A stretch of DNA of 64,000 nt, taken from positions 2,566,520-2,630,519 of the forward strand of contig NZ_LDAS01000001.1 of the NCBI RefSeq assembly GCF_001020565.1, given 5' to 3'. Of this stretch, positions 40,772-64,000 are shown one piece after another. Both the position numbers and the translations under genes were made by a program. Each line of letters opens with the position of its first letter. The stretch's first letter is position 1. Below the pieces are notes generated by a model, which saw only the letters and a list, made by a program, of their open reading frames with translations, did not search any database and was not told the origin of the DNA. The DNA is from Maribacter thermophilus (GTDB taxonomy: Bacteria > Bacteroidota > Bacteroidia > Flavobacteriales > Flavobacteriaceae).

Positions 40772-40805
40772 AACGCCAACAGTTAACTGTTGGCGTTTTC
40801 TTTTT
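40772..40805. terminator. Perfect-palindrome bidirectional terminator
   Basis: The 26-base perfect palindrome at 40772-40797 (arms AACGCCAACAG / CTGTTGGCGTT) is followed by TTCTTTTT on the plus strand. It terminates the secreted-protein gene and, on the minus strand, includes the last four codons and the stop of the halogenase-like gene. Confidence 0.85.
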
Positions 40806-42030
40806 CCATATCGGTTATATGCGCCACTGTTTTCACCAACCTGTGATGGTTTTTAACGAACGGATTCGTTTTGTCCCACACATAACCTGCAAGCACTGCA
40901 CATATCTGTGACTTGATAACAGGATTTTCAGAATCGGCAAAGAAAATTTTCTGCAAATTCCCCGTATACCATTCTTTCACATAGGTAGAAAAAACACGCA
41001 CCCCTTCTAATATATACTCCGAATATTCGGTTTCCCAATCAACCGATTGCCCTCTTAGTTCTTTTGCTATCAGTTTTGCCGACAAATGTGCAGATTCCGT
41101 GGCAAAAGCCACCCCTGACGAAAATACCGGATCTAAAAACTCGGCACTGTTACCCGTAAGTACATATCCATCCCCATATAACTGTTTAACAGATTTGGCT
41201 ATATTCTTTACCACCCTAGGCTCAAACTCGTAAGGTAAGTCTTTAAACCTTTCATAATAATGGTCGGACAGCTTCATCATTTCTTGAAGTTTCTCTGTAT
41301 TGGTACCTTTAAAAGATGCCAAATATTCGGTTGGCCCTACGTACCCAATGCTGGTATAACCGTTAGAAAAAGGAATCACCCAAAGCCAAGTTTCCTTACT
41401 TACGATATCAAAGGTAATTCTATGTCCCTCCCAACCTTCCGGTCTATTTACATCCTTTACATGGGTAAATATAGAAGAGTGCTTGGGTATTTCCGAAGGT
41501 TTGTCCAGATCTAACAATCTGGGCAATACCCTACCAAAACCACTGGAATCTATTATAAACCTAGCTTCGATTTTTGATGTGTTCCCCTCTTTGTCCAGAA
41601 TAGTGGTAATGGAACTACCGTCAACAAAATCGACCTCAGTAACCTCTTTTTCAAAATCGATATCAACACCCCTATTTGTTAGTTCGTCTGTCAAGGTTTT
41701 ATCAAAATCGGCACGCGGCACCTGCCAAGTCCAGCTCCAACCATCGGTATGTTTTTTGCTAAAATCAAATTCACAGGCTTTGGCTCCCTGTAAGAATCGG
41801 GCTCCAGTCTTAATTTCAAAACCTTTTTCCTTTAGGCAATCCAATAGCCCTACAGCCTCAAAATGATCCATACACCTGGGAATAAGGCTTTCACCGATAA
41901 CAAATCTAGGAAACTTGTTCTTCTCGACTACTTTAACCGAAAAGCCCTCATTAAACAGATAAGAAGCCGCTACCGAACCAGAAGGTCCGGCTCCTATAAT
42001 CAACACATCTACTTTTTCTTTTTTCTCCAT
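40783..42030 (-). CDS. FAD-dependent halogenase/monooxygenase-like oxidoreductase
   Basis: This 415-residue flavoprotein has an N-terminal FAD site GAGPSG (residues 13-18), GESLIP at 46-51, the W-x-W-x-I-P motif as WLWVIP at 215-220, and a second FAD region GDGYVLTGNSAEFLDPVFSSG. W-x-W-x-I-P marks flavin-dependent halogenases, and Lys74 sits where a catalytic Lys could lie. Close relatives without that activity include phenol hydroxylases and geranylgeranyl-reductase-like proteins. It diverges from the flexirubin operon, so the aryl ring of the pigment is the likely target, as a halogenase or hydroxylase. Chlorinated flexirubins are known from other Bacteroidota. Confidence 0.8.
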   Translation of the reverse strand: MEKKEKVDVLIIGAGPSGSVAASYLFNEGFSVKVVEKNKFPRFVIGESLIPRCMDHFEAVGLLDCLKEKGFEIKTGARFLQGAKACEFDFSKKHTDGWSWTWQVPRADFDKTLTDELTNRGVDIDFEKEVTEVDFVDGSSITTILDKEGNTSKIEARFIIDSSGFGRVLPRLLDLDKPSEIPKHSSIFTHVKDVNRPEGWEGHRITFDIVSKETWLWVIPFSNGYTSIGYVGPTEYLASFKGTNTEKLQEMMKLSDHYYERFKDLPYEFEPRVVKNIAKSVKQLYGDGYVLTGNSAEFLDPVFSSGVAFATESAHLSAKLIAKELRGQSVDWETEYSEYILEGVRVFSTYVKEWYTGNLQKIFFADSENPVIKSQICAVLAGYVWDKTNPFVKNHHRLVKTVAHITDMEKENANS

Positions 42031-42075
42031 TGGATTATTTCCCTGACAATAAGTACCCTAATTCGCTAATTATTT

Positions 42076-42083
42076 TAAATTTG
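42076..42083 (+). promoter_or_regulatory. -7 promoter element of the flexirubin operon
   Basis: TAAATTTG matches TAnnTTTG. It lies 65 bases before the tyrosine ammonia-lyase ATG and overlaps the 8-base palindrome TTGCGCAA. It is the only good plus-strand promoter in the divergent gap. Confidence 0.5.
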
Positions 42084-42147
42084 CGCAACAAAAATCTTTT
42101 TTTATCAAGACTAAGGTATTATATAAACCTTACAGAATCAACCATAC

Positions 42148-43683
42148 ATGCCAGAAATTACAGGAAGCTTAGGAATTAAGGAATTTTACGATGTCATATT
42201 TGACAAAAAAGACATTCAACTTTCGGACAAACTTCTAAGCACGGTAGAAGAAAGCCATAACTTCTTAAAAGAATTTTCAAAAAATAAAGTCATTTACGGT
42301 GTAAATACCGGATTTGGCCCTATGGCCCAATACAAGATAAAAGACTCCGAAACATTGGAGCTACAGTACAACCTTATCCGCAGCCATGCCTCCGGAACGG
42401 GAAACCCCATTCCACCCAAATATGTAAAGGCGGCCATGCTGGCAAGGTTAAACACTTTAAGCTTGGGCAATTCTGGAGTTCATGTATCGGTCATCAAGGT
42501 AATGGCAGAATTGCTGAACAAAGACATCACCCCTTTAATTTATGAACATGGAGGTGTTGGGGCTAGCGGAGACCTGGTCCAATTGGCGCACTTGGCGCTT
42601 GTACTTATCGGTGAAGGCGAAGTTTTCTACAAAGGAGAAAGAAGACCTACATCAGAAGTATTTAAAATAGAAGGCATACAACCTATAAAAGTAGAATTGC
42701 GAGAAGGGCTGGGGCTAATAAACGGTACTTCGGTAATGACCGGTATAGGTATCGTAAACATCATCTATACCCGTAGATTGTTAGAATGGGCCATTGCCTG
42801 CTCTTCTGCCATCAATGAAATTATGCAGGCCTATGACGACCACCTCTCTTTTGAACTCAACCAAACCAAAAGACACAAAGGCCAACGAGAGATCGCACGA
42901 TCAATGCGCAGCCATTTAGAGGATAGTACTTTAACCAGAAAAAGAGAACATCATTTATACAATGCCAACAATGATGTTGCCGTATTCGAAGAAAAAGTAC
43001 AAGAATACTACTCTATTCGTTGTGTACCTCAAATTTTAGGGCCCGTGTTGGACACCTTGAACGAGGTTGAACGAATTTTGATAGAGGAAGTAAATTCTGC
43101 CAACGACAACCCTATCGTAAATATCGAAAAACAAAATGTATACCATGGCGGTAATTTTCATGGCGATTACGTCTCATTGGAAATGGACAAACTTAAAATA
43201 GTCGTTACAAAAATGAGTATGTTGGCCGAAAGGCAACTTAATTACCTTCTTAACTCTAAGTTAAACGATATCTTGCCTCCTTTCGTTAATTTAGGTACAT
43301 TAGGATTAAATTTCGGAATGCAAGGTGTACAGTTCACGGCTACATCGACAGCAGCAGAAAACCAAATGCTGTCCAACCCCATGTACGTGCATAGCATACC
43401 AAACAACAATGACAATCAAGACATTGTAAGTATGGGTACCAATGCGGCCCTAATTACAAAAAAAGTAATTGAAAACGCGTTCGAGATAGTTGCCATAGAA
43501 ATGATAACTATTGTACAGGCGATAGAATACTTGGAAGTAAAGGACAAAGTTTCCTCGAAAACCAAAAAAATGTACGATGCTGTTCGTAAAATAGTTCCCC
43601 CATTCAAAAAAGATAAGGTAATGTACCCTTATGTAAATGAAGTAAAGAACTATATTATAAACCATCAAAATAAAAAGTCATGA
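42148..43683 (+). CDS. Tyrosine ammonia-lyase (MIO-dependent aromatic amino acid lyase)
   Basis: This enzyme deaminates tyrosine to p-coumarate, the aryl starter of the polyene. It is 511 residues and closely resembles, from memory, the characterised F. johnsoniae enzyme. The MIO-forming triad Ala-Ser-Gly is at 139-141 in GGVGASGDLVQLAHL, the catalytic loop Tyr is at 50 in YGVNTGFGPMA, and His80 in IRSHASGTG is the selectivity residue that favours tyrosine. Automatic annotation would call it histidine ammonia-lyase, but no hut genes are nearby. It is the first gene of the pigment operon, with an ATGA overlap into the WG-repeat gene. Confidence 0.93.
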   Translation: MPEITGSLGIKEFYDVIFDKKDIQLSDKLLSTVEESHNFLKEFSKNKVIYGVNTGFGPMAQYKIKDSETLELQYNLIRSHASGTGNPIPPKYVKAAMLARLNTLSLGNSGVHVSVIKVMAELLNKDITPLIYEHGGVGASGDLVQLAHLALVLIGEGEVFYKGERRPTSEVFKIEGIQPIKVELREGLGLINGTSVMTGIGIVNIIYTRRLLEWAIACSSAINEIMQAYDDHLSFELNQTKRHKGQREIARSMRSHLEDSTLTRKREHHLYNANNDVAVFEEKVQEYYSIRCVPQILGPVLDTLNEVERILIEEVNSANDNPIVNIEKQNVYHGGNFHGDYVSLEMDKLKIVVTKMSMLAERQLNYLLNSKLNDILPPFVNLGTLGLNFGMQGVQFTATSTAAENQMLSNPMYVHSIPNNNDNQDIVSMGTNAALITKKVIENAFEIVAIEMITIVQAIEYLEVKDKVSSKTKKMYDAVRKIVPPFKKDKVMYPYVNEVKNYIINHQNKKS

Positions 43684-44801
43684 AAAAAGCTTTCTCGTTA
43701 TTACTGGTATTATGCGTCACAATGTCCTTTGCCCAAGAATTGGCCTTGGTACGTGAAGACGGTCTGTTCGGATACATCAACAAGTCCGGGGAATATGTTA
43801 TAAAGCCCCAATACAAGGTAGCCAAAAGCTTCTCTGAAGGTTTGGCCGCAGCAGAGAAAGATAAAGCCTGGGGTTTTATCAACACAAAAGGGGAATGGGT
43901 CATTGAACCCACGTACGATAAGGTAAAATACTACAATTCGGGCTATGCATTGGTTCTTAAAGATGATCAATGGAAATACATAGACAAGAACGGGAAAGAA
44001 CTGAACACCCCTGCAGCGGACAAATATTACGATTTTGAGGAGGGTGTGGCCCTAATTCGACAAAACGACAAAATAGGCCTTATGGGTACCGATGGCAAGA
44101 CCATTCTAGAACCCACCTATGATGAGATAAAAAAATTTAGGGATGGCTACGCCAAAGCCAGAAAAGGAGAGCTATGGGGCATGATCAACAATAAAGGAGA
44201 AATAATCATCCCCTTTGAATATGAAGAGATTGGAAACACCTATAACGCCTCTGGTGTGTACGGTAAAAAAGGAAATGATTTTGGCATTATACACAATGGA
44301 TCTTTCAACATCATCGATGGAGCCGACAAAGTATGGAACTTCCATGGCGATTCTGGTCTCACTTATGCCAGAAAAGATAAAAAAACGGGTTTCGTCAACT
44401 CAAAGGGAGAATGGGTTATACCACCTACATATAGCAAAGCCAGGGCATTCTCAAATGGACTGGCACCCGTTGCCAAAGACAAAGAATGGGGATATATAGA
44501 TACAGAAGGTAAAACGGTCATAGATTTTCAATATAAGGATGCAGAGGTATTTTCTGCGAATGGATTTGCCCCGGTAAAAGAAAAAAATTGGGGATTTATT
44601 GATACTTCGGGTAACATGATAATTCCGACAGATTACAGTATTACGGCAGGATTGGCATTTTTAGCAGGTAATAACGACAAAGGTTTTTTAGGCGACTATG
44701 CCAGATTAAAATCCAAAAAAGGATGGGGCTTCTTTAATACAAAAGGAGAGCTTTTAGGTAACAAATGGTTTCAAAATGCGGAACCGTTCGTAAAGAATTA
44801 A
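43680..44801 (+). CDS. Exported WG-repeat protein
   Basis: This 373-residue protein has a signal peptide (MKKAFSLLLVLCVTMSFAQ) and about eight tandem WG repeats, each of the type W-G-[FY]-I-[ND]-x-x-G-x-x-[VI]-I-x-P-x-Y. Clear units include KAWGFINTKGEWVIEPTY, ELWGMINNKGEIIIPFEY, EWGYIDTEGKTVIDFQY and NWGFIDTSGNMIIPTDY. There is no catalytic domain. Such beta-repeat proteins are exported and may bind proteins or surfaces. It overlaps the lyase gene by four bases and is followed 20 bases later by fabG, so it is a full member of the operon. No role in pigment synthesis is established. Confidence 0.85.
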   Translation: MKKAFSLLLVLCVTMSFAQELALVREDGLFGYINKSGEYVIKPQYKVAKSFSEGLAAAEKDKAWGFINTKGEWVIEPTYDKVKYYNSGYALVLKDDQWKYIDKNGKELNTPAADKYYDFEEGVALIRQNDKIGLMGTDGKTILEPTYDEIKKFRDGYAKARKGELWGMINNKGEIIIPFEYEEIGNTYNASGVYGKKGNDFGIIHNGSFNIIDGADKVWNFHGDSGLTYARKDKKTGFVNSKGEWVIPPTYSKARAFSNGLAPVAKDKEWGYIDTEGKTVIDFQYKDAEVFSANGFAPVKEKNWGFIDTSGNMIIPTDYSITAGLAFLAGNNDKGFLGDYARLKSKKGWGFFNTKGELLGNKWFQNAEPFVKN

Positions 44802-44821
44802 AAAGGAACTTAAAAAATTAC

Positions 44822-45568
44822 ATGGGAAAGGAAAAGACCAAGTACGCACTGGTAACAGGCGGATCTAGAGGAATTGGAAGAGCTGTTTGCATACAATTGG
44901 CCAAAGACCTCGATTATAAATTACTGATAAATTACAACACTAATAAGACAGCCGCCGAAGAAACACTTTCCTTAGTGGAAGCGGCGGGCGGATCTGGAGA
45001 AATACTGCAATTCAACGTTACCGATAACGAAAGTGTCAAATACAGCCTAGACAATTGGCATAAAGAAAACGAAAATGCGGTCATCGAAGTGTTGGTAAAC
45101 AATGCGGGAATAAAAAAAGATGGTCTTTTTATGTGGATGAGCCCAGAAGATTGGTCTTCTGTCATCAACACCAGCCTTAACGGCTTCTACCATGTAACCA
45201 ATGCCTTGATACAAAAATTATTGGTTAATAAATACGGAAGAATAATTAACATAGTTTCCGTATCCGGATTAAAAGGCACTCCGGGACAGACCAACTATTC
45301 TGCAGCGAAAAGCGCCGTAATCGGTGCCACCAAAGCCTTGGCGCAAGAAGTAGCCAAAAGAAATGTAACCGTAAACGCAGTGGCACCGGGGTTTATAGAA
45401 ACCGACATGACCGAAGAATTAGACGAGTCGGAACTTAAAAAAATGATACCCGCAAACAGGTTTGGCAAACCAGAAGAGGTGGCCGCGGTAGTCTCATTTT
45501 TAGCCTCTAAAAAGGCGTCTTATATTACAGGAGAGGTAATAAATATTAACGGAGGTATTTATTCATAG
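44822..45568 (+). CDS. fabG: 3-oxoacyl-ACP reductase (FabG-like)
   Basis: This short-chain dehydrogenase of 248 residues has the NADPH site VTGGSRGIGRAV and the catalytic Ser-Tyr-Lys in VSVSGLKG and TNYSAAKSAV, plus NNAG. It would reduce beta-ketoacyl-ACP intermediates during polyene extension. The ATG at 44822 starts MGKEKTKYALVTGG; in-frame upstream codons would lie inside the WG-repeat gene. It is followed 11 bases later by a ketosynthase. Confidence 0.93.
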   Translation: MGKEKTKYALVTGGSRGIGRAVCIQLAKDLDYKLLINYNTNKTAAEETLSLVEAAGGSGEILQFNVTDNESVKYSLDNWHKENENAVIEVLVNNAGIKKDGLFMWMSPEDWSSVINTSLNGFYHVTNALIQKLLVNKYGRIINIVSVSGLKGTPGQTNYSAAKSAVIGATKALAQEVAKRNVTVNAVAPGFIETDMTEELDESELKKMIPANRFGKPEEVAAVVSFLASKKASYITGEVININGGIYS

Positions 45569-45579
45569 AAAAGAAGAGG

Positions 45580-46806
45580 ATGATGAAGCGAGTAGTAATT
45601 ACCGGCATGGGCATCTATTCTTGTATAGGCAAGAATCTAGACGAAGTAAAAAAATCTCTTTATGAAGGAAAGTCCGGAATATCCATTGACCCAGTTCGTA
45701 CCGAATTCGGCTATAGATCTCCATTAACGGGTATTGTTCAAGACCCTGACCTCAAAAAATTACTTTCCCGCAGACAACGTATAAGCATGGGAGAGGAAAG
45801 CAGATATGCTTATGTAGCATCTCTCGAAGCAATGCAAAATGCCCGAATAGACCAGGCTTTTTTTGATAAAAACGAAGTGGGCATTATCTACGGTAACGAT
45901 AGTACGGCCCTATCCGTTGTAGAATCCATAGATACCATCAAAGAAAAAAAAGACACAACACTGGTGGGCTCAGGAGCCATTTTCAAGGGCATGAACTCTA
46001 CGGTGACCATGAACCTTTCAACCATTTTTAAACTAAAGGGCATTAACCTCACCTTAAGTGCCGCATGCGCCAGTGGATCACATTCAATAGGGCTAGCCTA
46101 CCAACTAATAAAAAGTGGCCTACAGGACTGTATTATTACAGGTGGCGCGCAAGAAACCAATCATATATCCATGGCCAGTTTTGACGGTTTGGGCGTATTC
46201 GCCATTAGACCCGACGAACCCACTAAGGCATCTAGGCCTTTTGACAAGGACCGAAACGGACTAATACCCAGTGGCGGCGCGGCCACCGTCATCTTAGAAA
46301 GTTATGAATCTGCGGTAAAACGCGGGGCACCCATCTTGGCAGAAGTAGTTGGGTATGGCTTCTCTTCCAACGGCGACCATATTTCTACACCTAATGTTGA
46401 CGGTCCAGCAAGAGCCATGAAAAAAGCACTAGCGGACGCTACCCTTAAAACCTCTGATGTAGATTATGTGAACGCCCATGCAACCTCTACGACCGTTGGC
46501 GATGCCAATGAAGCAAAGGCCATTCATGAAGTTTTCGGAGAGAATAAACCATTTGTAAGTTCTACAAAATCAATGACAGGCCACGAGTGCTGGATGGCAG
46601 GGGCCAGCGAAGTGGTCTATTCAATGTTAATGATGCAAAACAGTTTTATAGCTCCGAATATTAACTTGGAAAATCCAGACGAAGATTCTGCCAAACTAAA
46701 CATTGCCCGTAAAACGATAGATAAAAAAATTGACGTATTTTTGTCCAATTCATTTGGATTTGGCGGAACAAATTCCGCTTTGATCGTAAAAAGTGTTGAC
46801 CAATAA
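45580..46806 (+). CDS. Beta-ketoacyl-ACP synthase (FabB/FabF type)
   Basis: This protein is 408 residues. The catalytic triad is intact: Cys163 in LSAACASGSHSI, His300 in NAHATSTT and His335 in TGHECWMAG. The start could be either of two adjacent ATGs. It stands directly upstream of an acyl carrier protein (one-base overlap), so it probably condenses on that carrier. It could serve the dialkylresorcinol acyl chain or the polyene. It is one of three active-looking ketosynthases of this type in the operon. Confidence 0.93.
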   Translation: MMKRVVITGMGIYSCIGKNLDEVKKSLYEGKSGISIDPVRTEFGYRSPLTGIVQDPDLKKLLSRRQRISMGEESRYAYVASLEAMQNARIDQAFFDKNEVGIIYGNDSTALSVVESIDTIKEKKDTTLVGSGAIFKGMNSTVTMNLSTIFKLKGINLTLSAACASGSHSIGLAYQLIKSGLQDCIITGGAQETNHISMASFDGLGVFAIRPDEPTKASRPFDKDRNGLIPSGGAATVILESYESAVKRGAPILAEVVGYGFSSNGDHISTPNVDGPARAMKKALADATLKTSDVDYVNAHATSTTVGDANEAKAIHEVFGENKPFVSSTKSMTGHECWMAGASEVVYSMLMMQNSFIAPNINLENPDEDSAKLNIARKTIDKKIDVFLSNSFGFGGTNSALIVKSVDQ

Positions 46807-47051
46807 TGATGACCAAACAAACCATAATCGAAAAAATTAACGACTTTCTCATAGATGACTTTGAGGTAGAGGAAGAAGCATTGGAGCCTAGTGCCAACCT
46901 TAAAGAGGCCATTGGCCTTGACAGCCTTGATTTTGTGGATTTAGTGGTCGCCGTAGAAAGTAATTTTGGGGTCAAGTTGGTAGGTGAGGATTTTGTCAAC
47001 ATCGTAACACTGCAAGATTTCTATGACCTAATAGAAAGAAAACTGGACTAA
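46806..47051 (+). CDS. Acyl carrier protein 1
   Basis: This 81-residue acidic protein has the phosphopantetheine site GLDSLDFVDLVVA (Ser in D-S-L). It carries growing acyl intermediates. It follows a ketosynthase and precedes the LpxL-like acyltransferase. A second, different carrier lies at 57646-57900, so the two halves of the pigment may use separate carriers. Confidence 0.95.
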   Translation: MMTKQTIIEKINDFLIDDFEVEEEALEPSANLKEAIGLDSLDFVDLVVAVESNFGVKLVGEDFVNIVTLQDFYDLIERKLD

Positions 47052-47076
47052 GCAAAATTCCAAGAACCAAAATTCA

Positions 47077-47964
47077 ATGGCAACCGAGTGGAAAGGAAAA
47101 TCAAAAGGTACTCTCCTAGGATATAAACTGTACATTTTTTTCCTTAAAACTTTTGGAATAGGTACCGCCTATTTTATACTTAGGTTTATTGTCCTTTACT
47201 ATTTTCTGTTTTCTTTCGAAAGCTCAAAGGCCATCTACTATTACTTTAAAAAACGATTAAAGTATTCTACATCAAAAAGTATCTTGTGCATATATAAGAA
47301 CTATTATATGTTGGGCAAAGTACTCACCGACCGGTTTGCCATATCCACCGCATTTAAGGATAAGTTCACCTACACACATGACGGAATTGAACATATAGAC
47401 CATTTGTTAAAACAAAATAAAGGAGGCATTCTTATTAGTGGCCACATAGGCAACTTTGAAGTGTCTCATTATTTTTTGGAAAGTCGATACTCCATTTCAA
47501 AAATACATATGGTAACCACCCATGCCGAAAGGGAAAACATCAAAGAGTACATGGAAAGCCAAGTGTCGGAATCATCTATGGAGTTCATAGTTGTCAAAGA
47601 CGACATGTCACATATTTTTGAAATTCATGCGGCATTGGACAAAGGAGGATTAGTAGTTTTTACAGGAGATCGCTATCTTCCCGGAACCAAAACCTTAAAG
47701 CAAGAATTTTTGGGAAGCGAAGCGGAATTCCCTATGGGACCTTATGTTTTGGCGTCTCGCTTAAAAGTTCCGGTACTTTTCGTATATGTTATGAAAGGAC
47801 CGAAAAGAGAGTACCACTTATATGCTAGAAAGGCGGTAGCAAAGGCCAGGGACCCCCAGGCGCTGCTAAAAGAATATACCCTTAGCATGGAATGGATATT
47901 GAAAAAATACCCCCTACAATGGTTTAATTATTTTGATTTTTGGAAAGACAGCCTAAAAAAATGA
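47077..47964 (+). CDS. LpxL/HtrB-type lysophospholipid acyltransferase
   Basis: This 295-residue membrane-associated protein has a hydrophobic N-terminal region (residues ~20-55) and the H-x4-E catalytic motif in SGHIGNFEVSHYFL, plus GDRYLPG and PVLFVYVMKGPKREYHLYA. Relatives transfer acyl chains to lipid A. In flexirubin clusters this family is thought to join the aryl polyene acid to the dialkylresorcinol hydroxyl. It overlaps darA by four bases (ATGA), consistent with that role. Confidence 0.85.
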   Translation: MATEWKGKSKGTLLGYKLYIFFLKTFGIGTAYFILRFIVLYYFLFSFESSKAIYYYFKKRLKYSTSKSILCIYKNYYMLGKVLTDRFAISTAFKDKFTYTHDGIEHIDHLLKQNKGGILISGHIGNFEVSHYFLESRYSISKIHMVTTHAERENIKEYMESQVSESSMEFIVVKDDMSHIFEIHAALDKGGLVVFTGDRYLPGTKTLKQEFLGSEAEFPMGPYVLASRLKVPVLFVYVMKGPKREYHLYARKAVAKARDPQALLKEYTLSMEWILKKYPLQWFNYFDFWKDSLKK

Positions 47965-50455: not shown

Positions 50456-50460
50456 CTACT

Positions 50461-50916: not shown

Positions 50917-50918
50917 CT

Positions 50919-55919: not shown

Positions 55920-55955
55920 TTGATAATAAATGGGATAGTATTAAATTCGCCATTT

Positions 55956-55963
55956 TAATTTTG
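55956..55963 (+). promoter_or_regulatory. Candidate internal promoter of the flexirubin operon
   Basis: TAATTTTG matches TAnnTTTG and lies 13 bases before the methyltransferase ATG, in one of the few real gaps of the operon. No TTG at good -33 spacing was found. Confidence 0.4.
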
Positions 55964-55975
55964 TGAAAGAACGTA

Positions 55976-57037
55976 ATGTCAAAAAAGAACATCAAAGCTA
56001 TTGATGCATTACAAGAGGCTCAAAAAATAGCTTTTGCCCCTTTTGTTTTTCAAACAACAGTTTCCCTAAAAAACCTTGGTATCTTCGATTATATTTTTGC
56101 GAACAATGCCAAAGGTGGCGTTACGCTCAAAGAAATCTCCCAAGCCCTTTCTATAAGCGAATATGGCCTTAGCGTACTATTAGAAATCGCCGAAAGTGCC
56201 GATATTGTTTATGTAGACGAAAACGGAAAATACGAACTTAGTAAAATCGGATACTTCTTGAGCTACAACCCTATGACCGAGGTAAACCTAAATTTCACCC
56301 AAGATGTCTGCTACCAAGGGTTGTTTCATTTACAAGAAGCCATAGAAGAACAAAAACCGGCGGGTCTAAAAGAATTGGGCAATTGGAAAACCATCTACGA
56401 GGGGCTTTCTCAATTAAACCCCAAAATTCAAAAATCTTGGTTCGATTTCGACCATTTTTATTCCGATGGTATTTTCGATGAAGCCCTGAAGATTGTTTTT
56501 AAGCACAAACCAAAGCTCCTATTTGACATTGGAGGCAACACTGGTAAATTCGCCATTCAATGTTGTTCTTACAATGATGACATAAATGTGCGCATTTTTG
56601 ATTTACCGGGCCAATTAAAAAAGGCATTAAAGAATACAGCTGACAAAGGTTTTGGCGATAGGGTAAGTGGCACCGAAATAGATTGGCTTTCGGAAAAACC
56701 CTCTATTCCCCATGGTGCGGACACCATTTGGATGAGCCAGTTTTTGGATTGCTTTTCAAAAGAGGAAATTTTAAAAATTCTCAAAACCACTGTAAAGGCA
56801 ATGGATACTGAAACCGAGCTTATCATCATAGAAACCTTTACGGACCGCCAAAAATTCGACAACGCGAAATTCACATTAGAAGCAACCTCTTTATATTTTA
56901 CCGCCCTTGCCAATGGCAACAGTAAAATGTACAAGGCCACCGAGCTTATTGAACTAGCCGACCAAGCAGGATTGAGTGTTAAAGAAGATGTTAATTTAGG
57001 GGAATTCCATACCTTGTTCGTCTGTAAAAAGAAATAG
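55976..57037 (+). CDS. SAM-dependent methyltransferase
   Basis: This 353-residue protein has a winged-helix dimerisation N-terminus (TLKEISQALSISEYGLSVLLEIAESADIV) and a Rossmann methyltransferase core with LLFDIGGNTGKFAIQCC, then FDLPGQLKKAL. The layout is that of plant-type O-methyltransferases, but the catalytic His of that family (V-L-H-D-W) is replaced here (F-L-D-C-F), so methyl transfer to carbon is a reasonable alternative. In aryl polyenes the ring carries a C-methyl group added by ApeB-type enzymes. Confidence 0.85.
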   Translation: MSKKNIKAIDALQEAQKIAFAPFVFQTTVSLKNLGIFDYIFANNAKGGVTLKEISQALSISEYGLSVLLEIAESADIVYVDENGKYELSKIGYFLSYNPMTEVNLNFTQDVCYQGLFHLQEAIEEQKPAGLKELGNWKTIYEGLSQLNPKIQKSWFDFDHFYSDGIFDEALKIVFKHKPKLLFDIGGNTGKFAIQCCSYNDDINVRIFDLPGQLKKALKNTADKGFGDRVSGTEIDWLSEKPSIPHGADTIWMSQFLDCFSKEEILKILKTTVKAMDTETELIIIETFTDRQKFDNAKFTLEATSLYFTALANGNSKMYKATELIELADQAGLSVKEDVNLGEFHTLFVCKKK

Positions 57038-57042
57038 AATTT

Positions 57043-57639
57043 TTGAAAAACGATTTCTACATACAAAGCTATAGCCATGTTAAAAACGGGGAAGTGTCCG
57101 TAAACGGAAAAACCGTTTTTAAAACATCGGAAACCGATTTTAAGTTGGTCATGAAAGCGGCCTACAAAAAATTGATCATAGACCACCCCAAGTTCTTTAA
57201 AATGGACAATCTTAGCAAACTGGGGTTCTTGGCCGCGCATGTACTATTAGAAAACGAAAAAGAAAAGAACATAGCCCTGATCCTATCTAACAAAGCATCG
57301 AGTTTAGACACGGATCGTACGTATCAAGAATCCATAAAAAATGTCGAGCAGTACTATCCAAGTCCTGCAGTGTTCGTATACACGCTGCCCAACATATGCA
57401 TGGGGGAAATAAGTATAAAGCATAAATTGTACTCGGAGAATTGCTTTTTTGTAACGGACGAGTTTACACCAAAAACCTTAAGCACTTATGCAAACGAATT
57501 ATTGGAGAGCAATAAGGCGAGAAAAGCATTATGTGGTTGGGTAGATGTGGATAATGGAAAATATAATGCATTTTTGTATGTTGTGGCAAAGAAGGGTACT
57601 TTTGTGCACTCCGAAGCCGAAATAAACCGATTATACTAG
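57043..57639 (+). CDS. Half-size ketosynthase-like protein
   Basis: This 198-residue protein starts at a TTG (57043) because no in-frame ATG lies upstream. Parts resemble the N-terminal layer of beta-ketoacyl synthases (FFKMDNLSKLGFLAAHVLLEN; ALILSNKASSLDTDRTYQESI; YPSPAVFVYTLPNICMGEISIKHKLY), where NICMGE falls in the nucleophile region but the C-terminal half with the two catalytic His residues is absent. It stands next to an acyl carrier protein. It may be a non-catalytic partner that docks on another ketosynthase. Confidence 0.7.
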   Translation: MKNDFYIQSYSHVKNGEVSVNGKTVFKTSETDFKLVMKAAYKKLIIDHPKFFKMDNLSKLGFLAAHVLLENEKEKNIALILSNKASSLDTDRTYQESIKNVEQYYPSPAVFVYTLPNICMGEISIKHKLYSENCFFVTDEFTPKTLSTYANELLESNKARKALCGWVDVDNGKYNAFLYVVAKKGTFVHSEAEINRLY

Positions 57640-57645
57640 AGACCA

Positions 57646-57900
57646 ATGAGTAATTTGAAATTAGAATTAAAAGAAAAGATCATAGAGCAATTAAACTTAG
57701 AGGATGTATCCGTTGATGAAATTGCGGACAATGATCCACTTTTCGGCGACGGTCTAGGGCTAGACTCGATCGATGCCTTAGAACTTATCGTAATGCTGGA
57801 TAAAGATTATGGTATAAAATTGGCCGACCCTAAAGAGGGACGAAAAATTTTTGAGTCCATAGATACTATGGCCGCTTACATTTCTGCCAACAAAGCATAA
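57646..57900 (+). CDS. Acyl carrier protein 2
   Basis: This 84-residue acidic carrier has the phosphopantetheine site GDGLGLDSIDALELIVML. It lies between the half-size ketosynthase and the KS-alpha gene and is probably the carrier for polyene extension. It differs from the first carrier (GLDSLDFVDL) in its recognition helix. Confidence 0.95.
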   Translation: MSNLKLELKEKIIEQLNLEDVSVDEIADNDPLFGDGLGLDSIDALELIVMLDKDYGIKLADPKEGRKIFESIDTMAAYISANKA

Positions 57901-57957
57901 GGACAGTTATATCTGATCTCATTTAAAAGCGATCAGCAGTAATTTTAATTACTTTCA

Positions 57958-59157
57958 ATGAACCGAGGAATTGCTATTACCGGGATGGGTTTAATTTCTT
58001 CCATTGGAAACAATGTAGAAGAAAATTTGGCTTCTTTAACATCCAACAAAACGGGTATTTCGCGTATTACCCAAATAAACACGGTTCATAAGAACGATAT
58101 TATGGTAGGGGAAATATCCCAAACCAACGATATGCTCGAAAAAAAGTTGGGCCTGGCCCCCAATTCCTATTCAAGAACACCGCTTTTGGGTATTGTTGCC
58201 GCCAAAGAAGCTATTGCCCAAGCCGGCATCAGCAATATAAAGGATTGTAAGACGGGCCTTATATCGGGCACCACTGTCGGAGGTATGGACAAGTCCGAAC
58301 AATACTTCTATGATTATTTTGAAAGTGACGATCATTGGAACCATATCAATGGCCTACATGCTGGCGACTCCACCCAAAAAATAGCCGATGCCCTTGGGCT
58401 TACCGAGAGTTTTGTGACTACCATAAGCACGGCCTGTTCTTCATCGGCCAATGCAATTATGTTAGGGGCAAGAATGATAAAAGCCGGCGAACTTGACCGT
58501 GTCATTGTAGGGGGATCCGATTGTTTATCAAAATTCACGATAAACGGTTTTAAAACCCTTATGATACTTTCCGACACCTACAACACGCCTTTCGACGAAA
58601 ACAGAAAGGGATTAAATTTAGGGGAAGCGGCAGCCTTTTTGGTATTGGAATCGGACGAAATTGTCTTAAGGGAGAACAAAAAAGTACTGGCCTATGTAAA
58701 AGGGTACGGCAATGCCAACGATGCCTTTCACCAAACGGCATCTTCAGAAAATGGTGACGGTGCTGTTTTGGCAATGGAAAAGGCTTTTCAGACCGCAGGG
58801 ATAGAACCTTCGGATATAGATTATATAAATGCCCATGGGACCGCAACCCCAAACAACGACCTTTCTGAAGGAAGATCCCTAATACGCATTTTCAACGGCA
58901 ACGTTCCTGAATTTAGTTCTACCAAGGCTTTTACGGGACACACCTTGGCCGCAGCCGGCAGTGTTGAGGCCATCTATTCGGTCTTGGCACTTCAAAACAA
59001 TATAATATATCCCAACCTTGGTTTTAAAACTCCCATGAGCGAGTTTGATCTTGTACCTGAAACAATATTAAAGCATAAAGAAATTAATACGGTACTTTCT
59101 AATTCTTTTGGTTTTGGAGGTAATTGTTCTACCCTTATTTTTACCAAAGAGGCATGA
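57958..59157 (+). CDS. Beta-ketoacyl synthase, KS-alpha of the polyene extender
   Basis: This protein is 399 residues with an intact triad: Cys160 in ISTACSSSANAIM, His293 in NAHGTATPNN and His328 in TGHTLAAAG. Its stop overlaps the next gene, a degenerate ketosynthase, by four bases (ATGA). This KS-alpha/KS-beta arrangement matches the ApeO/ApeC pair of aryl polyene systems and type II polyketide synthases. Confidence 0.93.
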   Translation: MNRGIAITGMGLISSIGNNVEENLASLTSNKTGISRITQINTVHKNDIMVGEISQTNDMLEKKLGLAPNSYSRTPLLGIVAAKEAIAQAGISNIKDCKTGLISGTTVGGMDKSEQYFYDYFESDDHWNHINGLHAGDSTQKIADALGLTESFVTTISTACSSSANAIMLGARMIKAGELDRVIVGGSDCLSKFTINGFKTLMILSDTYNTPFDENRKGLNLGEAAAFLVLESDEIVLRENKKVLAYVKGYGNANDAFHQTASSENGDGAVLAMEKAFQTAGIEPSDIDYINAHGTATPNNDLSEGRSLIRIFNGNVPEFSSTKAFTGHTLAAAGSVEAIYSVLALQNNIIYPNLGFKTPMSEFDLVPETILKHKEINTVLSNSFGFGGNCSTLIFTKEA

Positions 59158-60221
59158 AAAAGGAAGTTTACATCAATAGTATAGGTTCTGTATCTGTTCA
59201 AAAAACATTTGACAGCACTCAATTTTTGGAAGATATCGTCACTTATAACGACACTACGTTAAAAGTAGTGGACCCTAACTATAAGGAATATATTCCGCCT
59301 GCGGCGGCTCGCAGAATGGCCAAAGGCATTAAAATGAGTGCTGTAAGCTCAAAAAATGCCATGAAAGAGGCAGGGTTACAAAATGTAGACGCCATTATTG
59401 TTGGCACGGGGTTGGGCTGCCTTGGGGATTCTGAAAAATTCGTAAGCGACATCATCAAAAACGATGAACAGTATTTGACCCCTACGAGATTTATACAGTC
59501 CTCACATAATACGGTCGCCGGTTCCATAGCATTGGATATGGGCTGTAAAGGGTACAATTTCACATACGTTAATACCTCTATTTCCTTTGAGTCTAGCCTA
59601 TGGGATGCAAAATTGCAGTTACAGGCAAATGAAGCTACCCATATTTTGGTTGGCGGTGTAGATGAAATGGTGGACCATCATGTAGATACACATAGGTTCA
59701 TAGGTCACGTAAAAGATAAGCCCGTGGCCATGGAAGAGGTGCTTTCTTCGCATACAAAAGGTGCCGTCATCGGTGAAGGCTCTCATTTTTTTGTACTGTC
59801 GAATAAAAAAGGGAAATCTACCTATTCCAAATTAACGGCCCTAAATATTTACAACACACTGAAAAAAGAAAACATCGCAGAAGTAATTACCGGTTTTCTA
59901 AAAGACAACCACCTTCTGTTAAAAGATATCGACGGCGTTATTTTGGGCAATAATGGCGATATTGAGTACGACCACTTTTACACCGACCTGTGCTCTTCGA
60001 TTTTTGAGAATACACCTCAACTAGTTTTTAAACATCTTTCGGGCGAATTTGATACCGCTACCGGTTTTGGCTTCTGGCTGGCCAACAAAATATTCAAAAC
60101 TGGTATTGTACCGGAAATAGTAAAATTAAACGATAAAAACATAACCGAACCGAAAAGGTTATTATTATATAATCAATACCGAGGACGAAACCATAGCCTG
60201 GTGTTGCTGGAAAAATGCTAA
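59154..60221 (+). CDS. Degenerate ketosynthase, chain-length-factor-like (KS-beta)
   Basis: This 355-residue thiolase-fold protein pairs with the upstream KS-alpha. The nucleophile region reads YVNTSISFESSL near residues 138-148, with Ile or Ser where the Cys should be, and neither H-G-T-A nor G-H-T motifs are present (instead GNNGDIEYD and KHLSGEFDT). Loss of all three catalytic residues fits a chain length factor. The ATG at 59154 is chosen for the ATGA overlap. Confidence 0.88.
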   Translation: MKKEVYINSIGSVSVQKTFDSTQFLEDIVTYNDTTLKVVDPNYKEYIPPAAARRMAKGIKMSAVSSKNAMKEAGLQNVDAIIVGTGLGCLGDSEKFVSDIIKNDEQYLTPTRFIQSSHNTVAGSIALDMGCKGYNFTYVNTSISFESSLWDAKLQLQANEATHILVGGVDEMVDHHVDTHRFIGHVKDKPVAMEEVLSSHTKGAVIGEGSHFFVLSNKKGKSTYSKLTALNIYNTLKKENIAEVITGFLKDNHLLLKDIDGVILGNNGDIEYDHFYTDLCSSIFENTPQLVFKHLSGEFDTATGFGFWLANKIFKTGIVPEIVKLNDKNITEPKRLLLYNQYRGRNHSLVLLEKC

Positions 60222-60991
60222 GGCGAAAGACCGTAAATACTGTTTTCATACTTCTAACGGTATTGTTGTTAGGGCTCTCTTTTTTTACTGTTGTTCCCCT
60301 AATAGTATATTTCCTTTTTTTCTTCTTTTGGTTATTGATTACCATATGCGGTTCTTTTTTCATACGATGGAACTATCACTACAAATCGCTACACAGCAAT
60401 AAAAACATTACAAACAATTTTGTCGCCATAACCTTTGACGATGGCCCTCACCCACAATACACGCCCCAAGTATTGAACCTATTAAAAAAACACAACGCCA
60501 AGGCCACTTTTTTTTGCATTGGCCAAAATGTCGAGCAACACCCCAATCTTTTTAAGGCAATCATCGACGACGGCCACACCGTCGGAAACCACACCTTTTC
60601 ACACGCCAGATCCTTTGGTTTTTTTAACGAGGAAGAAGTAAGTAAAGAACTCTATAAGACCATCGATTTGATAAAAAGTATCAGTGGTTTACAAATGAAA
60701 CTGTATCGCCCTGCTTTTGGGGTAACCAACCCCAGCATAGCAAAAAGTGTAAAAAAATTGAACCTTACCTCTATTGGCTGGAACGTACGTTCTTTGGATA
60801 CTACCCCGAGAAACGAAAGTATGGTCCTAAAGAGAATTACTTCGAAAATTTCAAAAGGCGACATTGTTCTATTACATGATACCAGTGAAAAAAGTGTGCG
60901 TGTTTTGGAACGGTTATTGTTATTTTTGGAAGAGAAAAAACTAAAATCGGTTACAGTAGACCAAATACTACAGATCAAAGCCTATGAATAA
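60215..60991 (+). CDS. Polysaccharide deacetylase (NodB) family protein
   Basis: This 258-residue protein has two N-terminal membrane segments (residues ~7-50) and a NodB domain with TFDDGPHP (motif 1), VGNHTFSHA (H-x3-H motif 2), RPAFG (motif 3), and LLHD (motif 5). The metal-binding Asp and both His residues are present, so it should be active on a carbohydrate or other amide at the inner membrane periplasmic face. NodB proteins are unexpected in a pigment operon. It overlaps both neighbours by 7-8 bases. Confidence 0.9.
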   Translation: MLRRKTVNTVFILLTVLLLGLSFFTVVPLIVYFLFFFFWLLITICGSFFIRWNYHYKSLHSNKNITNNFVAITFDDGPHPQYTPQVLNLLKKHNAKATFFCIGQNVEQHPNLFKAIIDDGHTVGNHTFSHARSFGFFNEEEVSKELYKTIDLIKSISGLQMKLYRPAFGVTNPSIAKSVKKLNLTSIGWNVRSLDTTPRNESMVLKRITSKISKGDIVLLHDTSEKSVRVLERLLLFLEEKKLKSVTVDQILQIKAYE

Positions 60992-61601
60992 ATTTTTGGT
61001 AATAATGCTCTTTCTCGTAAAAGCGGTTACGGCACAAACAGAGATGACATCTGCCGAAGCACAGGCTCTACGGACCTTGGTTAAAGAAAAGGCCGCTCTC
61101 ACCAAAACCATTTTGAGCGATTTTACCCAGTACAAACATTTAGATTTTCTTTCCAACGACATCGAATCTAACGGTAAACTTGCTTTTCAGGCACCCGACA
61201 AGGTATTGTGGCAATACTCCGCCCCTTTTTCGTATTCGATACTTTTTAAGAACGAAAAGCTTTACATAAACGACAATGGAAACAAGAGCGATCTTAACGT
61301 TGGCTCCAACAAACTGTTTAAACAATTAAATCAGCTAATTACCGCTAGTATTAACGGAGATATGTTTATTTCGGACGAGTTTGAGATCGATTATTTTAAG
61401 ACAGATGATTCCAACATTGTCCATTTTACCCCGAAAGACGCACAGTTTGCTGAGTTTATAAAGACATTTCATATTTCCTTTTCCAAGACCGGGGAAGTTA
61501 CCAGGGTAAAAATGATAGAACCCAGTAACGATTATACCTTGATCATTTTTTACAACAGAATAGAAAATAAAGCAATACCAGATGCGGTTTTTTCTCAGTA
61601 G
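60984..61601 (+). CDS. LolA-like outer membrane lipoprotein carrier
   Basis: This 205-residue periplasmic protein has a signal peptide (MNKFLVIMLFLVKAVTAQ) and a LolA-type half-barrel: ILSDFTQYKHLDFLSND, SNGKLAFQAPDKVLWQYSAPFSYSILF. LolA homologues in aryl polyene clusters (ApeL-type) are thought to carry the lipid-like pigment across the periplasm. It overlaps the upstream NodB gene and the downstream lipoprotein gene. Confidence 0.88.
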   Translation: MNKFLVIMLFLVKAVTAQTEMTSAEAQALRTLVKEKAALTKTILSDFTQYKHLDFLSNDIESNGKLAFQAPDKVLWQYSAPFSYSILFKNEKLYINDNGNKSDLNVGSNKLFKQLNQLITASINGDMFISDEFEIDYFKTDDSNIVHFTPKDAQFAEFIKTFHISFSKTGEVTRVKMIEPSNDYTLIIFYNRIENKAIPDAVFSQ

Positions 61602-62187
61602 TACTTTCATAATACTCATAGGCTGTACCCCATATCCAAAAAAAATGGGTTACGACCAGTCGACCTCTACATCTGTTCAAATTACCAATCCTTATTTTTC
61701 CGATGCAGACCATGATTATGTCTATAAAGCCGGCATTACTTTTTTTGACAAACAATTTGGCGGTATTCTAGTAATTAAAAAAATAAAGGAAAACAATCAC
61801 CGGGTAGTCTTCACCACCGAATTTGGCAATACTATTTTCGATTTTTCTTTTAAAGACGATGATTTTAAGGTAAACCGAATTCTTAAAGAAATGGACCGTA
61901 AGTTATTGCTAAATATTTTAGAAAAGGATTTTAGAAGTCTTATAAAAGAACATATAACCCCTATAGACATCTATAAAAACGAAAACAAAAGTTTGATCAA
62001 GACCCAAAACAGATCTAAAAAATACTACTATCTATATGAATCGGATACTTTGACCCAAATTGCACGCATTGCAAATCAAAAAGAAAAAGTAGTTATCAAA
62101 TTCTCGAAAATAAGTAATAACATTGTAGATTATATACAAATCACACATAGTAACATAAAACTCCAAATTAGATTAACTGCCATTTAA
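61582..62187 (+). CDS. Putative lipoprotein of the flexirubin cluster
   Basis: This 201-residue protein has a lipobox-like N-terminus (STFIILIGCTPYPKK, Cys near residue 15). The mature part is beta-rich and charged, with FDKQFGGILVIKKIKENNHRVVFTTEFGNTIFDF and LLLNILEKDFRSLIKEHITP. Small lipoproteins of similar position exist in aryl polyene clusters. It could be an outer-membrane partner that receives pigment from the LolA-like protein upstream. No family name is certain. Confidence 0.7.
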   Translation: MRFFLSSTFIILIGCTPYPKKMGYDQSTSTSVQITNPYFSDADHDYVYKAGITFFDKQFGGILVIKKIKENNHRVVFTTEFGNTIFDFSFKDDDFKVNRILKEMDRKLLLNILEKDFRSLIKEHITPIDIYKNENKSLIKTQNRSKKYYYLYESDTLTQIARIANQKEKVVIKFSKISNNIVDYIQITHSNIKLQIRLTAI

Positions 62188-62222
62188 AAACAGCTTCTTT
62201 TGGGGAATACAAAACAACTAAT

Positions 62223-62594
62223 ATGTTAATTGACGGTCTTTACGAAATATTGGAATATGAGCATGAACAGCAACGGGTCGAGGCCACAATCAAATTGAAC
62301 AAAGACCATAATATTTTTAAAGGCCATTTTCCTGGACACCCAGTTATGCCAGGCGTCTGTATTATTCAAATTATAAAGGAGCTCACCGAAAAATCATTGA
62401 ACAAAAGCCTATCGCTCTCCGTTGCCTCCAACGTAAAGTTCATGGCCATTATCAATCCTCAAAAAAACGAAGTCATAAAGGTAGATTTGGCGCTTTCAGA
62501 AAATGATGGCGACATTAAAGTGAAAAATACGGTCAGTTTTGACGATACCTTGGCATTAAAGTTGAATGCTACGTTTAAAATAAAAAACGTATGA
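62223..62594 (+). CDS. 3-hydroxyacyl-ACP dehydratase subunit (ApeI-like) with HFPG motif
   Basis: This 123-residue hotdog protein has the catalytic loop FKGHFPGHPVMPG with His35. The residue aligned with the catalytic Glu of FabZ is Gln49 (VCIIQIIKEL), so the protein by itself seems to lack half of the site. The two hotdog genes at 50021 and 50461 have the Glu but not the His. A heterodimer is the simplest way to complete the site, as proposed for ApeI-ApeP. Confidence 0.85.
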   Translation: MLIDGLYEILEYEHEQQRVEATIKLNKDHNIFKGHFPGHPVMPGVCIIQIIKELTEKSLNKSLSLSVASNVKFMAIINPQKNEVIKVDLALSENDGDIKVKNTVSFDDTLALKLNATFKIKNV

Positions 62595-63076
62595 AATCAT
62601 TACTCTTCGGTTCTTTGTTTTTTTTGCTTCTTTTCTCGACAAACTTAAAAGAGGTACGTAAGATGTACCCCTTGGCCATGGAAGATTCGGGTATTACAGA
62701 TGAACTTTACAAAGATCTATCAAATGTCTCCGAAGCGGATAATATTATCCTCTACGGGTATAAAGGTGCCATTTTGACCTTAAAGGCCAAACACGCAAAG
62801 AGCATCAAGGAAAAGAAAAATTTCTTTAAAGAAGGTGTTGGCATTATAGAGTCTGCCTTGGCATCGAACCCCGACAATATAGAACTTCGTTTTATTAGGT
62901 TAAGCGTTCAAGAAAACGCCCCAAAAATAGTTAAGTACAATACCAAGACCGAAGAGGACAAAAATTTCATTTTAAAGAACCTGGATAAATTGGATAACAA
63001 TTCGGTAAAAACATTGATCCGAGATTATATTCGCACATCAAAACTTTTTACCGAAGTAGAAAAGGCCACTTTTTAG
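62591..63076 (+). CDS. Exported helical protein of unknown function
   Basis: This 161-residue protein has a short hydrophobic N-terminus (MKSLLFGSLFFLLLFSTNL) followed by a mainly helical region: YGYKGAILTLKAKHAKSIKEKKNFFKEGVGII and ESALASNPDNIELRFIRLSVQ, which resembles a TPR-type helical pair. No enzymatic motif is seen. It has an ATGA overlap with the dehydratase subunit. It is the last gene before the 69-base gap and candidate promoter of the glycosyltransferase. Confidence 0.7.
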   Translation: MKSLLFGSLFFLLLFSTNLKEVRKMYPLAMEDSGITDELYKDLSNVSEADNIILYGYKGAILTLKAKHAKSIKEKKNFFKEGVGIIESALASNPDNIELRFIRLSVQENAPKIVKYNTKTEEDKNFILKNLDKLDNNSVKTLIRDYIRTSKLFTEVEKATF

Positions 63077-63090
63077 CTCTTTCTAATGTG

Positions 63091-63098
63091 TATCTTTG
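63091..63098 (+). promoter_or_regulatory. -7 promoter element for the glycosyltransferase gene
   Basis: TATCTTTG matches TAnnTTTG, in the gap between the helical-protein stop and the next coding frame. No clear -33 element was found. Confidence 0.35.
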
Positions 63099-63145
63099 TC
63101 CAAATCAACACCCACTAATCAAAAAACAACACCTATCTTAGAAAC

Positions 63146-64000
63146 GTGCCTGCCATCACCACCATACAAGAGCGAATGCAACAACATCGTTGCTGTGTCA
63201 TAATACCCACATACAACAATGAAAAGACCTTGGCAAAGGTCTTGAACAGTGTCTTAGGGTACACCTGCAATATTATTGTCGTGAACGATGGGGCCACCGA
63301 TAGCACCCCCGAAATACTAAAAACCTTTTCACAGGTAGAACAGGTGCACCTAAAAAAAAATGAAGGTAAGGGCAACGCTTTAAAAATTGGTTTTAAGACG
63401 GCACTTGAGCAAGGATATGAATTTGCGATCACCATAGACTCCGACGGGCAACATTTTGCAGAGGATATCGCTGTTTTTTTAGATGCACTTGAAGCAGAGA
63501 AAACTAAGAATGTGTTATACATCGGTGCCCGCAACATGTCGCAATCGGACGTACCCGGAAAAAGCAGCTTCGGTAACAAGTTCTCTAATTTTTGGTTCTG
63601 GTTCGAAACAGGAACTTGGCTTACCGACACGCAGTGCGGCTATCGTTTGTACCCATTAAAAGAAATACAAAAACTTAAACTGTACACCCCTAAGTTCGAG
63701 TTTGAAATAGAGGTTATCGTAAAGGCTTCTTGGAACGGAACATTGGTAAAAAACGTACCGGTTAAAATATTATATGACGATAAAGATCGCGTATCACATT
63801 TTAGGACCGTACCCGATTTTACACGTATAAGCATTTTGAACACTTGGTTTGTTCTGGTAACCATTTTCTATATTAAGCCTCGTAATTTTTTCAGGAAGCT
63901 TAAAAAAAAAGGGTTTAAAAAATTTCTTTTGGAAGATGTAATGGGAAGCACCGACTCTCCTTTAAAAAAAGCACTTTCCATTGCTTTGGGCGTGTTTATT
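63146..64000 (+). CDS. Family 2 glycosyltransferase, C-terminus cut by window edge (probable DUF2062 fusion)
   Basis: The frame is open to the right edge, so only the first ~285 residues are visible. A GTG at 63146 and an ATG at 63176 are possible starts; no ATG lies upstream before the stop at 63116-63118. Motifs are VIIPTYNNEKTL, IIVVNDGATDST, NEGKGNALKIGFKTALEQG, and ITIDSDGQH (D-x-D metal site), as in dolichol-phosphate-mannose-synthase-like GT2 enzymes. The terminal stretch KKALSIALGVFI resembles the start of a DUF2062 membrane domain, a fusion known in this pigment family. It may glycosylate the pigment or a lipid carrier. Confidence 0.82.
   Translation, partial: MPAITTIQERMQQHRCCVIIPTYNNEKTLAKVLNSVLGYTCNIIVVNDGATDSTPEILKTFSQVEQVHLKKNEGKGNALKIGFKTALEQGYEFAITIDSDGQHFAEDIAVFLDALEAEKTKNVLYIGARNMSQSDVPGKSSFGNKFSNFWFWFETGTWLTDTQCGYRLYPLKEIQKLKLYTPKFEFEIEVIVKASWNGTLVKNVPVKILYDDKDRVSHFRTVPDFTRISILNTWFVLVTIFYIKPRNFFRKLKKKGFKKFLLEDVMGSTDSPLKKALSIALGVFI

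Follow-up and report, generated by a model that had tools for sequence, protein, structure and literature searches.

Flexirubins are orange pigments that serve as a chemotaxonomic marker of the Bacteroidota. Their gene clusters are common, a survey having reported 1,234 of them in 2,680 genomes (PMC10734526). In Chitinophaga pinensis, as described in PMC3992019, the only open-access paper that we found on flexirubin together with tyrosine ammonia-lyase (TAL) and coumarate, the genes flxA to flxY encode a TAL-initiated type II aryl polyene pathway with LolA, exporter, deacetylase and glycosyltransferase genes; darA and darB lie separately, and the cluster is closed by FlxY, which activates 4-coumarate. 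In Flavobacterium johnsoniae UW101, according to published descriptions, a single large cluster contains darA and darB along with lolA2/lolB2 and the gene for an aromatic amino acid lyase (PMC3992019, PMC11885536), LolA2 and LolB2 being proteins of flexirubin loci according to the latter paper. The arcuflavin genes of Azoarcus sp. BH72 are described as an aryl polyene-dialkylresorcinol (DAR) hybrid in which the halogenase gene arcA stands beside the gene for the starter enzyme, arcB, and the starter comes from chorismate (XanB2 type; PMC3949708). Here we analysed a 64,000-nucleotide stretch of Maribacter thermophilus (contig NZ_LDAS01000001.1, positions 2,566,520 to 2,630,519; the window), in which the genes from position 40783 onwards, judged by their sequences, very probably encode a flexirubin-type biosynthesis and export pathway. 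The cluster type, the gene order and the product class are already known; the locus deviates in that FlxY is missing and in having a conserved but under-described halogenase homologue as its neighbour.

The locus shares the pathway type and accessory genes of C. pinensis, but its dar genes lie inside the cluster and it has no FlxY. In the former respect it resembles, by description, the F. johnsoniae cluster. With the arcuflavin genes it has in common the hybrid character and the position of a halogenase-like gene beside the starter enzyme, whereas its own starter would derive from tyrosine. Family assignments were made with the curated cut-offs of the NCBIfam flexirubin and dialkylresorcinol models and with Pfam; gene starts are mechanically assigned start codons. 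Six genes score over the curated cut-offs (FlxA, FlxB, DarB, DarG, DarH and LolB2). The locus contains FlxA and FlxB, the DarB/DarG/DarH set, a type II set of ketosynthases (KS), KS-beta, acyl carrier proteins (ACP), ketoreductase (KR) and dehydratases (DH), and LolA2/LolB2 together with an MMPL exporter, in support of the original prediction of a flexirubin-type locus uniting aryl polyene and DAR genes. The genes named in that prediction were likewise recovered, with TAL, two carriers, three ketosynthases, KS-beta, DarB, a FabG-type reductase, dehydratases, an LpxL-type acyltransferase and LolA recognised by sequence and DarA as a candidate only.

The genes had also been proposed to form one almost gapless operon. 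Spacings of -37 to +69 bp (30 spacings among 31 plus-strand genes) bear this out, but the gene at 40783-42030 is on the minus strand and outside the operon, and the operon, which starts with flxA (42148), ends not at 64000 but with a C45/AAT-type acyltransferase gene at 72107, 8.1 kb past the window. The 117 bp ahead of flxA contain a single plus-strand TANNTTTG box, which we take to be the Bacteroidota -7 promoter element, and the C45 gene is followed on its 3' side by a 110-aa minus-strand open reading frame (ORF) and then by sugar-catabolism-type genes. An MMPL exporter and a coenzyme A (CoA)/ACP ligase had been suggested as genes to seek past the window; the former is present with a fused acyltransferase domain, and none of the latter type was found in the cluster. 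The genes are as follows.

40783-42030, minus strand: flavin-halogenase homologue transcribed divergently from flxA, putative chlorinase of the phenol ring (PF04820, 91 bits; PDB 3nix, E=4e-148)
42148-43683, plus strand: FlxA tyrosine ammonia-lyase (NF053541, 896 bits, cut-off 700; ASG motif at residue 139)
43680-44801, plus strand: WG-repeat protein (PF14903; same position in relatives)
44765-45568, plus strand: FlxB ketoreductase, FabG-type (NF053542, 419 bits, cut-off 340)
45580-46806, plus strand: ketosynthase KS1 (PF00109/PF02801; Cys163)
46806-47051, plus strand: acyl carrier protein ACP1 (PF00550)
47077-47964, plus strand: LpxL-type acyltransferase (PF03279)
47940-48887, plus strand: DarA candidate, DAR aromatase (position ahead of DarB and predicted fold; no sequence profile)
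48887-50020, plus strand: DarB ketosynthase/cyclase (NF053539, 653 bits, cut-off 550)
50021-50455 and 50461-50916, plus strand: two dehydratase-like subunits (weak FabZ matches under cut-off)
50883-51329, plus strand: DarG (NF053545, 213 bits, cut-off 170)
51313-52320, plus strand: DarH, a BtrH-related acyltransferase that may form the ester bond (NF053550, 515 bits, cut-off 300)
52347-54351, plus strand: ABC transporter ATPase and permease (PF00005, PF12698)
54341-54778, plus strand: thioesterase, 4HBT (PF13279)
54771-55919, plus strand: ketosynthase KS2 (PF02801/PF00109; Cys146)
55976-57037, plus strand: FlxJ-like methyltransferase (NF053543, 459 bits, under the cut-off of 560)
57043-57639, plus strand: small KS-like protein of 198 aa, absent from the original prediction (weak FabF match, E=7e-4; no Pfam match)
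57646-57900, plus strand: acyl carrier protein ACP2 (PF00550)
57958-59157, plus strand: ketosynthase KS3 (PF02801/PF00109; Cys160)
59124-60221, plus strand: KS-beta or chain-length-factor-like protein (Ser at the FabF active-site Cys position)
60215-60991, plus strand: polysaccharide deacetylase family protein (PF01522)
60984-61601, plus strand: LolA (PF03548)
61582-62187, plus strand: LolB2 (NF053540, 243 bits, cut-off 60)
62223-62594, plus strand: FabA/ApeI-like dehydratase (PF07977)
62591-63076, plus strand: conserved protein (no Pfam match at E 0.1; adjoins DarA in genomes G431 and G296)
63146-64345, plus strand, cut by the window end at 64000: glycosyltransferase 2 with DUF2062
64338-68021, plus strand, outside the window: MMPL fused to an acyltransferase domain
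68018-69568, plus strand, outside the window: CrtI-like protein
69568-70446, plus strand, outside the window: Cupin_8 protein
70443-72107, plus strand, outside the window: C45 acyltransferase

The active-site cysteines of the three ketosynthases were read from motif context and the serine of the fourth from alignment to FabF; a serine in place of the cysteine is as expected for a KS-beta.

In our model, FlxA would make p-coumarate from tyrosine, the KS/KR/DH/ACP set would build the aryl polyene, and the phenol ring would be modified by the flavin-halogenase homologue and the FlxJ-like methyltransferase. The dialkylresorcinol would come from DarB and DarA and be esterified with the polyene by DarH or the C45 enzyme, and transport of the product to the outer membrane would fall to MMPL, LolA and LolB2. 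The original prediction had described the route from tyrosine through p-coumarate and polyene to the DAR ester as direct. The gene set fits this route, but it is incomplete as a direct one: p-coumarate-activating FlxY is missing, and the entire genome contains only a 26%-identical partial match to it. Judged by gene content, then, the locus is flexirubin-type and is not FlxY-initiated in the manner of C. pinensis. Because FlxY is missing, p-coumarate would have to be activated by a ligase encoded outside the cluster, the best candidate being a feruloyl-CoA-synthase (Fcs)-type gene at genome positions 327320-329179.

The arrangement itself is shared with relatives. The window comes from a Maribacter genome of 4.05 Mb (G000), and its DarB and the one of Maribacter sp. 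MMG018 share 99% identity. The stretch between the divergent gene and KS-beta is ordered identically in six loci, including five named Maribacter (the loci of Maribacter sp. MMG018, PR1 and 4G9 were read to 10 kb after darB). Three further loci differ in having no methyltransferase gene, and the Planktosalinus locus is similar to those three. Chryseobacterium loci have an exporter-DarA-DarB order, and in G016, the one fully read, flxA lies about 25 kb off on the opposite strand. The suggestion that the gene order is unusual is rejected accordingly, since named Maribacter loci share it and other Flavobacteriaceae have it with minor differences. The dar genes and TAL are indeed interleaved with the aryl polyene genes, as predicted, but this is the usual arrangement in relatives. 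We also rejected a recent joining of the dar genes, because the position of the dar block does not differ among the Maribacter clusters read and relatives such as G145, G099, G060, G175 and G030.

Within Maribacter, the cluster is patchy: DarB scores over the cut-off in four of the 13 genomes scored. Consistently, the supplement legend of PMC9606717 lists Maribacter dokdonensis as a flexirubin-negative control. We doubt recent gain as the cause of this pattern, because the five Maribacter clusters read (G000; G004, which is Maribacter flavus KCTC 42508; G006; G009, which is Maribacter litopenaei HL-LV01; and G622, read from the WG-repeat gene onward, with flxA outside the stretch) share a downstream flank at which G011 keeps a remnant of FlxY. 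In G011, no flexirubin cluster was found in the 40 kb read, and the remnant, a C-terminal piece of 93 residues (59% over residues 336-428; L262:19458-19754, G011:C1:2119458-2119754), is probably a deletion scar. By these sequence comparisons the shared flank and the remnant point to cluster loss, from a single scar in G011 only.

How exceptional is a cluster without FlxY? Of 16 non-Maribacter genomes read, 14 have next to the cluster a protein of about 430 aa whose size, position and family identify it as FlxY. The Flavobacterium-like relatives G030, G060, G136 and G160 (the latter two read in the cluster tails) keep FlxY where the window's cluster does not. In the two others, G445 and G223, the clusters are scattered, and the reading covered 20-kb pieces of them. 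FlxY proteins were scanned in seven of the 14 genomes, and all seven exceed the PF00501 cut-off, by 31-44 bits. In contrast, a search of 36 Maribacter genomes found a full FlxY in one, G622, as the last gene of the flexirubin cluster, the C-terminal remnant in G011, weak partial matches of 25-31% identity in 11, including the window's, and none in 23.

These data raise the alternative that the flexirubin cluster is decaying, with FlxY lost first, the pathway blocked and no pigment made. Three observations weigh against a functional pathway. FlxY is absent between the C45 gene and the shared flank in the cluster-bearing Maribacter genomes G000, G004, G006 and G009; several genes of the G009 copy are frameshifted, although this genome is 81% complete and assembly errors may contribute; and the FlxJ-like methyltransferase falls under the NF053543 cut-off. 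The remnant in cluster-less G011 and the patchiness of DarB would also fit decay. However, all 31 operon ORFs are open in the window's genome, and G004 and G006 likewise lack FlxY while their remaining genes are intact. Moreover, over 21 genes compared between the window and Maribacter sp. MMG018, nonsynonymous divergence (dN) is 0.022 and synonymous divergence (dS) 0.55, giving an omega of 0.040, a sign of strong purifying selection, so that the missing FlxY does not imply decay of the window's cluster; the closer MMG018 pair was used because synonymous sites are saturated against G004, G006 and G622, leaving dN/dS mostly undefined. We consider decay improbable.

If the pathway is functional, a ligase acting in trans likely activates p-coumarate in the window's genome, as the gene content suggests. 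Searching 11 Maribacter genomes with PF00501 gave 67 listed matches. Among these, one Fcs-like class, scoring 170-179 bits, is encoded in G000, G004 and G006 by open frames of 622-653 codons and in G009 by two frame-shifted pieces. Thus all four cluster-bearing genomes without FlxY have an Fcs-type ligase gene, and none of the seven other Maribacter genomes does (Fisher p 0.003). For the other 63 matches, the 30 with a locus have no more than 29% identity to the G000 protein, and absence of the class among the remaining 33 was judged by length and score. The G000 protein scores 704 bits against the feruloyl-CoA synthase model NF009232, under its cut-off of 777. Its best plasmid relative is 46% identical and annotated as feruloyl-CoA synthase; among the 25 plasmid relatives listed of 30 found, nine carry this annotation, seven are called AMP-binding protein and nine are unannotated there. 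The copies of G000, G004 and G006 are mutually 59-67% identical versus 91-95% for an Acs control. In G000 and G004 they have ribonucleotide reductase genes nearby, and in G006 the surroundings are different. From the low identity and the differing surroundings, we read these copies as separately acquired.

Two of these results tell against a role in pigment synthesis: the association is post hoc and drawn from related genomes, and the G006 copy sits amid acyl-CoA dehydrogenase, enoyl-CoA hydratase and aromatic-acid transporter genes in an apparent catabolic operon. The Fcs-type ligase may therefore be purely catabolic, with p-coumarate activated by another ligase that forms adenosine monophosphate or loaded directly on a carrier, a scenario to which we give an even chance. 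The window's genome has seven further PF00501 genes and a 448-codon frame that is the 26%-identical FlxY-like match. On the other hand, a search at E 0.001 gave no equivalent of that frame in G004, G006 or G009, and Fcs is the sole PF00501 class present in the four cluster genomes without FlxY and in none of the other seven, absence resting partly on length and score. We therefore regard substitution of FlxY by the Fcs-type ligase in flexirubin synthesis as a serious possibility, if one somewhat short of even. As a separate observation, the apparent aromatic-acid uptake and breakdown operon of G006 (L298:4935-13131) includes a gene for a DUF3237 protein along with the Fcs-type gene, and a DUF3237 neighbour is also found at two Variovorax plasmid relatives of the Fcs-type gene.

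The second deviation concerns the divergent flavoenzyme encoded at 40783-42030. Its closest match in the PDB is 3nix ('flavoprotein/dehydrogenase', presumably from Cytophaga hutchinsonii), followed by CmlS, PltA and other flavin halogenases, to all of which it is much less close. The positions of GxGxxG, the catalytic Lys and WxWxIP that mark flavin-dependent halogenases such as CmlS and PltA are all kept, and the Lys aligns with that of solved halogenases. Among the 47 of 56 copies with a locus, the window's included, GxGxxG, Lys74, W215/W217/I219/P220 (WxWxIP) and an FLDP-x-FSSG stretch are invariant, whereas none of seven weak homologues with a locus has the Lys and none the full WxWxIP. 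The gene closely tracks FlxA in samples of 196 genomes of the order, 296 of the phylum and 151 of one other family (each genome counted once in the totals). In the order sample, 92 genomes have a lyase match at E<=1e-100, 37 of them over the FlxA cut-off, and the flavoenzyme (E<=1e-20) occurs in the same 37. It is a divergent neighbour of flxA within 250 bp in 33 of these, the exceptions being G155 (1.4 kb), G128 and G195 (about 6 kb) and G175 (32 kb). It was found in 23 of 25 FlxA genomes of the phylum sample and 16 of 22 of the other family, and in 56 of 63 overall; sampled genomes without FlxA gave no strong match, only eight weak ones of 24-28% identity in the phylum sample. Being conserved yet dispensable (no match in seven of 63 FlxA genomes), the enzyme fits a tailoring function.

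Based on these sequence features, we favour the idea that the flavoenzyme chlorinates the phenol ring of flexirubins, with modest confidence. It could alternatively be a monooxygenase or dehydrogenase of the pathway. The protein also matches FAD-binding monooxygenase and geranylgeranyl-reductase families, and its closest solved relative is named as a dehydrogenase. In addition, the gene occurs in most flexirubin genomes sampled, yet the C. pinensis pigment published in PMC3992019, C43H54O4, contains no chlorine, which would count against a chlorinase if C. pinensis carries the flavoenzyme gene. These points make a non-halogenase plausible, but the invariant halogenase-type residues, the dispensability and the position beside the FlxJ methyltransferase gene in G431, G445 and G223 all favour ring tailoring by a halogenase, and we hold the alternative to be the less probable of the two. 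Chlorinated ring pigments have a precedent in '5-Chlorflexirubin', a minor pigment of Flexibacter elegans, for which we found no paper. The introduction of PMC3992019 mentions chlorinated flexirubins, and its main text contains no word beginning with 'halogen'. In the open-access literature, flexirubin and a halogenase occur together in PMC3949708, through its table of arcuflavin genes, and in PMC11187115. The same literature yielded no paper on a chlorinated flexirubin polyene; this scope excludes supplements, among them Tables S4 and S5 of PMC3992019, as well as subscription papers, and the gene may be annotated there.

We tentatively suggest, while considering the full combination rather unlikely, that a lineage within Maribacter replaced FlxY by feruloyl-CoA synthases that were acquired separately, stem from catabolism and are encoded away from the cluster, and that the flavoenzyme whose gene is divergent from flxA in most of the sampled flexirubin genomes is the as yet unassigned phenol-ring chlorinase of flexirubins. 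If the displacement occurred, pigment synthesis would share its activation step with hydroxycinnamate breakdown, and if an unlinked ligase serves the pathway, scoring of cluster completeness would miss this dependence. Two points can be tested, namely which enzyme chlorinates some flexirubins and how a pathway under strong purifying selection can do without its only characterised activation enzyme.

The product of 47940-48887 is a candidate DarA by position and predicted fold. A scan of named genome contigs with the DarB alignment, from which the compared loci were taken, gave 93 relatives, of which 80 were retained, and an intact ORF of the same family lies directly ahead of DarB in 78 of these 80 loci. 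The structural model (predicted local distance difference test score 85) has a flavodoxin-like N-terminal half, which suits the label 'DAR-aromatase' printed in a table of PMC3949708. The top Foldseek matches of the model were receptor constructs, which we discounted as probable artefacts of fusion or size, and flavodoxins came next; among PDB sequences the best match was a flavoprotein at E=0.1 only. Near-full-length relatives of about 30% identity are encoded on three Streptomyces plasmids (NZ_CP109562.1, NZ_CP108465.1, NZ_CP108315.1), where they are annotated as hypothetical protein.

Finally, the clusters vary in several accessory genes. In the five Maribacter clusters and in G145, the Cupin_8 (JmjC-like) gene is flanked by the CrtI-like and C45 genes; in G107 it is a neighbour of C45, and the remaining regions read gave no match at E 1e-15. 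An outer-membrane beta-barrel gene (PF13568) stands between LolB2 and the dehydratase in G004, G006, G009 and G145 (e.g., L038:6606-7196), with more distant copies in G175, G030 and G060; it has no match in the window's cluster (gap 62187-62223), and no gene separates LolB2 from the dehydratase in G622. In G445 and G223 (L235-L238) the flexirubin genes are scattered, flxA lying 560-730 kb from a block of methyltransferase, halogenase-homologue and KS-like genes. In G622, about 8 kb with six ORFs (G622:C1:2698924-2706919) are inserted between the DarH and ABC transporter genes.

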